Source: Desulfonispora thiosulfatigenes DSM 11270 (GTDB lineage: Bacteria > Bacillota > Peptococcia > Peptococcales > Desulfonisporaceae). From it: DNA of 64,000 bases. Below the pieces are notes generated by a model. It did not search any database and was not told where the DNA came from. It worked only from the letters and a program-made list of their open reading frames with translations. The stretch covers positions 62,001-126,000 of the forward strand of contig NZ_FWWT01000023.1 in the NCBI RefSeq assembly GCF_900176035.1, written 5' to 3'. A program made the position numbers and the translations under genes. Positions 24,603-25,915 of this stretch are shown here, piece after piece. The stretch's first letter is position 1; the number at the start of each line of letters is the position of its first letter.

Positions 24603-24631
24603 TTGCCATAAGCCATGAACCTTGTTATAAT
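24603..24631 (+). promoter_or_regulatory. SigA promoter of the tRNA-like RNA gene
   Basis: TTGCCA (24603-24608), exactly 17 bases, perfect TATAAT (24626-24631). The predicted first base is about 24638-24639, just where the folded RNA begins. Confidence 0.75.
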
Positions 24632-24647
24632 TAATTCAGGCGTTAGA

Positions 24648-24718
24648 GAAAATTGTGGTGAAACGGTATCATACAGGTTGTGGCACCTGAGATATGGGTT
24701 CGAATCCCATCTGTTTTC
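24648..24718 (+). tRNA. tRNA-His(GUG)-like cloverleaf with six-base anticodon loop, no CCA
   Basis: The sequence folds as a near-canonical tRNA: G-1 (24648) opposite C73 (24718), the histidine-tRNA hallmark; an AT-rich acceptor with a T-G wobble and one T-T mismatch; D stem GTGA/TCAT with loop AACGGTA keeping A14, G18, G19 and A21; anticodon stem CAGGT/ACCTG; a 4-base variable region; and a perfect T arm ATGGG-TTCGAAT-CCCAT. The anticodon loop is TGTGGC, one base shorter than the TTGTGGC expected for tRNA-His(GUG). CCA is not encoded, unlike the three ordinary tRNAs at 22771-23069. It may be a degenerate tRNA-His, an isoacceptor with special use, or a HisRS-binding mimic. Confidence 0.5.
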
Positions 24719-24772
24719 TTCGTTACGCATCCAGCAATGATGGATGCGAGAATATTTGCATTTTTATTCTAT

Positions 24773-24800
24773 CCTCCAATTTTGGAGGTTTTTTCTTTTT
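24773..24800 (+). terminator. Intrinsic terminator of the tRNA-like RNA gene
   Basis: Seven-base stem CCTCCAA/TTGGAGG (24773-24779 with 24782-24788) and a TTTTTTCTTTTT tail. Confidence 0.9.
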
Positions 24801-24901
24801 ATAGCTAAATTAGATTTACTGAAAATTTATTTTATAAAACACAAATATTTAGCAGGTATTTACCATTTATTGTCAAATAGAAATAAATGGAGGTGTAGTT
24901 A

Positions 24902-25915
24902 ATGAAAAAATTTCTAAAAATCCTGCTATATACACTATTTATTTTATCCATTCAAACCAATATCATACACGCAGAACCATCAAAAAATCCCAGACCCGAA
25001 AATTTAAAACCCCTTTTAAACTTAGAAGAGAATATTACTAATTTTAAAATTAGTGCAAATGAGCAATACATAGCTTACTATAATTCTTCTAGCCGTTATC
25101 TAATTGTTAAAAACCTGTACAGTAATACTGAAATTTGGAGAAAAAAAACAAATACTAATCTTTATGATTGGCATCCTAGCGAAGATATTTTAATTTATTC
25201 CGATAATAACAAATCTAATTTTAGTATCAATACTATAAATATCCATAATCCCGCTTCTTTAAAGACAATACATAGCGAAAAAAGTGAAAATCAAGATATT
25301 ATTTTTCTTAAAAGTTCACCTCAAAAAGATGAAGTTTTTTTTATTGTTTTAAAAGGTTTTGCAAATGCACATGGCTATACTTCAACAATTAATTATGTAG
25401 ATCAACAAAAAGTATCTTCAATCGGAGACTATCCTGATTCTGAATATATAACCTTTTCTACAGTAAATAGTAATTTTGCTATTAGTCAATTAAATTATCT
25501 TGATATGACTACAAATACCTTAAAATTAATTGATGCAAATTATAATTTACTAAACACCATTACTGAAGGACATATAACCTCTAGTCCACTTTTTTCTCTT
25601 AACGGCAAAGAAATAGTATATAGTGAATTAGATGATAACAATCAAAAAATTGTCTTATATGATTTAGAAAAAAATAAATCCACAATATTAAAAAATCACT
25701 CTAGTGATGTCCAAAATTTATGTTGGTTAAATAAAGATACTCTAGTATACTTATCTGGCACTAAACCCCATATTGAAATTTTTAATATAATTACACAAAA
25801 TAACTTTACCTTATCTGAAGGCATGGCTCCTTTTACTCTAAATAATAATTTATATTTTTTAAAGGAGAATCCTCATACTTACGAAACTTTATTATATGTA
25901 TACATTAACAATTAA
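24902..25915 (+). CDS. Secreted TolB/WD40-like beta-propeller protein, function unknown
   Basis: A 337-residue exported protein. The N-terminus (MKKFLKILLYTLFILSI, then a small-residue stretch ending HAEP) is a typical signal peptide with likely cleavage near residue 25. The rest shows repeated blades with a WHPSEDILIYSDN or SPLFSLNGKEIVYSEL flavour, the pattern of TolB-like six-bladed propellers. No lipobox is seen. GGAGGTG precedes the ATG. It is the only protein gene on this plus-strand island, downstream of the tRNA-like RNA and its terminator; its own promoter was not identified. I cannot assign a ligand or partner. Confidence 0.8.
   Translation: MKKFLKILLYTLFILSIQTNIIHAEPSKNPRPENLKPLLNLEENITNFKISANEQYIAYYNSSSRYLIVKNLYSNTEIWRKKTNTNLYDWHPSEDILIYSDNNKSNFSINTINIHNPASLKTIHSEKSENQDIIFLKSSPQKDEVFFIVLKGFANAHGYTSTINYVDQQKVSSIGDYPDSEYITFSTVNSNFAISQLNYLDMTTNTLKLIDANYNLLNTITEGHITSSPLFSLNGKEIVYSELDDNNQKIVLYDLEKNKSTILKNHSSDVQNLCWLNKDTLVYLSGTKPHIEIFNIITQNNFTLSEGMAPFTLNNNLYFLKENPHTYETLLYVYINN

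Follow-up and report, generated by a model that had tools for sequence, protein, structure and literature searches.

Most known pseudo-tRNAs are isolated curiosities located close to genomic islands. Specialisation away from the ribosome is also found for an unusual tRNA-Gly of Staphylococcus, which is charged by its cognate synthetase and used off the ribosome, for the cell wall. The pseudo-tRNA tRNA-Other of Bacillus cereus carries a Trp anticodon, flanks a genomic island and occurs in some Bacilli; it is absent from polysomes and acts in regulation (PMC3399842). In the case of histidine, histidyl-tRNA synthetase (HisRS) has its determinants in the residue at −1 and in the anticodon; viral tRNA-like ends are also substrates of the enzyme when they are able to form an N-1:N73 pair (PMC9976931).

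Here we analysed a window of 64,000 nucleotides from Desulfonispora thiosulfatigenes DSM 11270 that contains a tRNA-His-like RNA (24648..24718, + strand), called the look-alike in the following. It has an 8 bp acceptor stem including G-1 (24648) opposite C73 (24718), as well as D, anticodon and T arms, and it ends without CCA. The cloverleaf at 24649-24718 (+) matches Rfam RF00005 with 46.9 bits (E=7.3e-7), exceeding the gathering score of 29 bits, and is the lowest scorer among the 63 tRNA matches of the 2.41 Mb genome; the look-alikes of relatives reach 38-59 bits with the same model. D loop and T arm are intact. The anticodon loop TGTGGC (24679..24684, +) is non-canonical, since position 32 or 33 is absent and only six bases are present instead of the seven-base U33-GUG loop of a functional tRNA-His, and ARAGORN labels the gene tRNA-??? 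with the anticodon GTGG. The AT-rich acceptor contains a T6.T67 mismatch and a T5.G68 wobble, and C73 is followed by TTC instead of CCA, which is encoded by 58 of the 59 ordinary tRNAs inspected at other sites of the genome. The sole CCA-less gene among these 59 is a tRNA-Arg(TCT) (L056:1691-1765). The original prediction had described a cloverleaf with G-1 opposite C73, GUG, T arm and D loop, which the RF00005 match and direct reading confirm; the six-base anticodon loop, the mismatched acceptor and the missing CCA that it reported can all be read in the sequence. The minimum-energy fold of the window copy alone is not a cloverleaf, and the cloverleaf assignment therefore rests on comparative evidence.

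The predicted promoter (24603..24631, +) consists of TTGCCA (24603-24608), a spacer of 17 nt and TATAAT (24626-24631) with an extended −10 TG (TGT), and matches 11 of 12 consensus positions. It is kept across the family: a TG-preceded TATAAT (TGnTATAAT) is found in all 29 members compared and the −35 TTG in 28 of them. Many members have in addition AACCA upstream of the −35 element and GACAAG near the start; the window copy reads TCCA where a pattern drawn for the family had ACCA. According to the promoter position the RNA is predicted to start at approximately 24638 (+), leaving a 5′ leader of about 10 nt (24638..24647, +), in which positions −2/−3 can pair with 74/75. An intrinsic terminator, CCTCCAATTTTGGAGG (24773-24788) followed by a T run, marks the predicted RNA end (24773..24800, +), and the predicted transcript is approximately 160 nt long. 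Promoter and terminator had already been proposed, and prediction tools agree on both. A hairpin located 3′ of the tRNA-like part (24726..24748, +), CGCATCCA..TGGATGCG (GACGCATCC..GGATGCGTT), was assigned by fold and alignment; it is the counterpart of the GACGCA..TGCGTT terminator of relatives and is mostly a terminator in the family. It is gone in two relatives (G021 and G032) and replaced in a third (G028) and is thus no conserved switch. The idea that this hairpin competes with the closing stem, and that the RNA acts as a sensor through this competition, is not supported, because stem and hairpin form together in the predicted minimum-energy fold and the hairpin varies among relatives.

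The host genome encodes one ordinary tRNA-His. This gene belongs to a tRNA cluster of contig 16 and has the loop UUGUGGU, G-1:C73 and CCA. The look-alike is therefore not the tRNA-His of the organism, and the possibility that it is simply the tRNA-His was dismissed after this count. Beside the look-alike, the host and the carrier genomes checked have an ordinary tRNA that shares its anticodon. Throughout the class the ordinary tRNA-His has the loop UUGUGG(C/U), with U33 in 22 of 22 genes checked; in several genomes of the families f2 and f6 it also lacks an encoded CCA. Identity between the look-alike and the ordinary tRNA-His within one genome is about 60%, and several members are as similar to the tRNA-Asp of the Desulfonispora genome (G000) as to tRNA-His, so that the parental tRNA may have been of the His or of the Asp type. 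Mean pairwise identity in 20 genomes is 0.765 for the look-alike and 0.914 for the ordinary tRNA-His; judged from these sequences, the look-alike evolves faster yet retains its fold.

Homologues of the look-alike stretch were found with blastn in 22 of 40 relatives. A covariance search in related genomes had been named as a check of the original prediction, and a model built from 16 members indeed recovered the family: within the class Peptococcia, 32 of the 46 genomes searched contain one match of 63-92 bits, separated by a gap from the ordinary tRNA-His genes, which score at most 60 bits. Among the 31 genomes with a completeness of 90% or more, 26 are carriers, and carriers are present in 11 of 12 families. 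In 398 genomes sampled from the phylum, all strong covariance matches lay within the class; those of the 59-63-bit matches outside it that were read are ordinary tRNA-His or tRNA-Arg. The exact U33 form of the look-alike's anticodon arm was not found in 398 genomes of the phylum. When 84,980 species were scanned for an exact pattern, 23 contigs were returned; their labels are Peptococcaceae, Clostridia or Firmicutes, which points to a Peptococcaceae-like lineage of Bacillota. The literature searched contained no published account of the family. It is virtually certain that the look-alike represents a conserved tRNA-like gene family. Two tRNA-rich phage contigs found by pattern matching (L174:13520-13590 and L175:9678-9748) encode a tRNA-His with the anticodon stem of the look-alike but with U33; as both carry an ordinary U33 tRNA-His, a phage origin was rejected.

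Pairing and covariation were analysed in 15 distinct look-alike sequences. The cloverleaf including the eighth acceptor pair is 94% paired, both sides are altered in a compensatory manner in 10 of 22 pairs, and the covariation score is 0.329 compared to 0.176 for shuffles. Site-by-site comparison of 29 members revealed that GUG-G37-C38 is invariant (29/29) and that the −1:73 pair can form in every member, as G:C in 16, A:U in 12 and G.U in one. Since 12 members have A:U, G-1:C73 itself is not the conserved feature. A −2:74 pair is possible in 21 of the 29. The sequence is thus constrained across relatives, which bears on the suggestion that the gene is a tRNA-His relic, either silent or in decay. 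The AT-rich mismatched acceptor, the short loop and the absence of CCA would fit such a relic; the gene, its promoter, GUG and the −1:73 pair are nevertheless kept in 11 families beside the ordinary tRNA-His, with covariation and invariant sites, and this conservation across the class refutes decay, which retains next to no probability.

The same 29 members have lost the canonical anticodon loop altogether: six bases are found in 10 (U, once G, before GUG), C33 in 17 and A33 in two, leaving the canonical seven-base loop with U33 in none. Likewise, CCA is encoded in none of them, though it might be supplied post-transcriptionally. This makes it very probable that the look-alike is not a normal decoding tRNA. 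Alternatively, it could work as an additional tRNA-His isoacceptor that decodes CAC/CAU despite its odd loop, is processed by RNase P and RNase Z and receives its CCA end afterwards. The invariant GUG, the intact tRNA tertiary contacts and the label tRNA-His assigned by ARAGORN in many relatives are compatible with this, as are those ordinary tRNA-His genes of f2 and f6 that lack CCA. C33 loop variants can keep some decoding in other systems. We consider a working isoacceptor improbable, however, given that no member has the canonical loop, that the loop has only six bases in 10 and A-1:U73 occurs in 12, and that an ordinary tRNA-His was found in the genomes examined.

That the canonical loop has disappeared but GUG and the −1:73 pair persist suggests that use on the ribosome was lost and contacts with the synthetase were retained. 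We therefore tentatively favour a lineage-specific pseudo-tRNA that has retired from decoding, remains under selection and has HisRS binding as its most likely mechanism. A free-standing gene, confined to a single class of anaerobic Bacillota, would give rise to a small RNA that folds as a tRNA-like L. Decoding would have been dropped with a loop that has one base too few or no canonical U33 and with the loss of an encoded CCA, and translation of His codons would be left to the normal tRNA-His. The RNA might then bind HisRS in its uncharged state, acting as competitor or sensor, or else be charged with histidine for use off the ribosome. From the observed family, its fold and promoter, its co-occurrence with the ordinary tRNA-His and the loss of the canonical loop we infer that the look-alike is transcribed, would not decode and may bind HisRS.

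HisRS is the most likely partner because the retained features, the −1:73 pair, GUG and the L fold, are contacts of HisRS on tRNA-His; judged from sequence, this assignment has somewhat less than an even chance of being correct. The HisRS-binding mimic proposed originally thus remains the best reading; it is strengthened by the family-wide −1:73 pair and GUG and weakened by the A:U pair in 12 of 29 members. These A:U pairs are the main counter-evidence to HisRS binding, as A-1:U73 (12/29) and G.U (1/29) should be poor determinants in E. coli-type bacteria. All genomes searched have a HisRS match, and most also have a weaker HisRS-like paralogue, probably HisZ. The best match of the host (L168, G000:C17:15245-16384; 288 bits) is of a short divergent type, as is HisRS of family f6 (287-299 bits), and most other members of the class have the standard type with approximately 490-540 bits. 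Presence of the look-alike correlated neither with the HisRS type nor with the paralogue, and carriers include both HisRS types. That carriers do not track HisRS type and have no conserved partner gene also speaks against HisRS binding. An RNA that does not decode could have a partner other than HisRS, and GUG would then be ancestral or retained for the sake of this other partner; a tRNA modification or processing enzyme, off-ribosome transfer of another amino acid or a nuclease decoy come into question. Such a partner would be consistent with the lack of conservation of G-1:C73 itself, with the members that are equally close to tRNA-Asp and tRNA-His, and with the −2:74 extension of the acceptor (21/29), which would hinder a free CCA end. 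We regard it as unlikely, since no candidate emerged and the strict GUG and −1:73 pairing suit HisRS best. The boldest form of the HisRS reading, a class-wide housekeeping RNA derived from tRNA-His that would hold HisRS off the ribosome, either as competitor and charging sensor or as histidine carrier for a non-ribosomal reaction, is possible but less likely than not.

As tRNA-Other acts on trpS1 of B. cereus via a T-box (PMC3399842), the look-alike might similarly be a trans-acting decoy for hisS-aspS T-box leaders. Several carriers do have hisS T-box leaders in which Asp/Asn and His codons overlap. The hisS T-box leaders of relatives (L149, L150, L151, L152, L153, L158, L159 and L160) contain overlapping GACAC/AACAC codons, and these specifiers could be read as Asp or Asn plus His. 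The seven T-boxes of the host, however, have specifiers read as Phe, Ile, Cys, Ser-like, Tyr, Trp and Trp, and none of the seven is specific for His. In addition, the carriers checked in f2, f6, f7, f8 (G030) and f9 yielded no hisS T-box, while the non-carriers G001, G009 and G040 have one. Because the host has no His T-box and carriers do not track hisS T-boxes, the decoy is refuted as a common function and is highly improbable here; it could hold in some species.

Comparison of 21 regions revealed no conserved partner gene beside the look-alike, and neighbours differ between families. In the window, the gene for a predicted secreted beta-propeller protein (24902..25915, +) follows and is probably an independent neighbour. 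Such a propeller gene lies 3′ of the look-alike on the same strand in 12 of the 21 regions, the others being variable, and it might be argued that the look-alike is a 5′ leader element attenuating this gene. Yet the RNA is closed by terminators, the propeller gene has a separate conserved motif of its own ahead of it, and f2 and others keep the RNA without a propeller neighbour, so that attenuation has hardly any probability. In f2 no propeller gene adjoins; a gene located upstream of the look-alike is one that we take, from its sequence and without a search, to be YchF-like. The motif ahead of the propeller reading frame (24852-24879), GCAGGTATTTACCATTTATTGTCAAATA, has similar counterparts GCAGGAATTT..TGTAAAATA at the same spot in relatives and is possibly a promoter or regulator site. 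A tRNA-Val(GAC) gene is located within approximately 400 bp of the look-alike in many relatives (L088, L090, L104 and others), usually divergently; it was not found in the host genome. No genomic island was seen near the look-alike.

Altogether, the look-alikes probably form a new family of pseudo-tRNAs that resemble tRNA-Other in kind. Annotation programs call the look-alike tRNA-His or tRNA-???, and it is therefore easily miscounted. As a vertically kept one-copy family in 11 families, it offers a comparative test bed for the question which tRNA-His features survive without decoding. The closest known case is tRNA-Other: both are tRNA-like RNAs with their own gene in genomes that also have ordinary tRNAs, and both are placed outside translation, here from sequence. 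In contrast to tRNA-Other, the look-alike has a His anticodon, one copy throughout the class and a stand-alone conserved promoter, with no island seen. With bacterial tRNA-His (GUG) it shares GUG, the 8 bp acceptor with the −1:73 pair and G37, and it differs in lacking the canonical U33 loop and CCA, in having often A:U at −1:73 and in its stems. The Staphylococcus tRNA-Gly is specialised off the ribosome, as the look-alike is predicted to be, but it is charged by its cognate synthetase; the look-alike has no transferase neighbour. Plant-virus tRNA-like structures are recognised by HisRS via an N-1:N73 pair on viral 3′ ends with pseudoknots (PMC9976931); the look-alike, unlike these, is a true cloverleaf in a bacterial gene.
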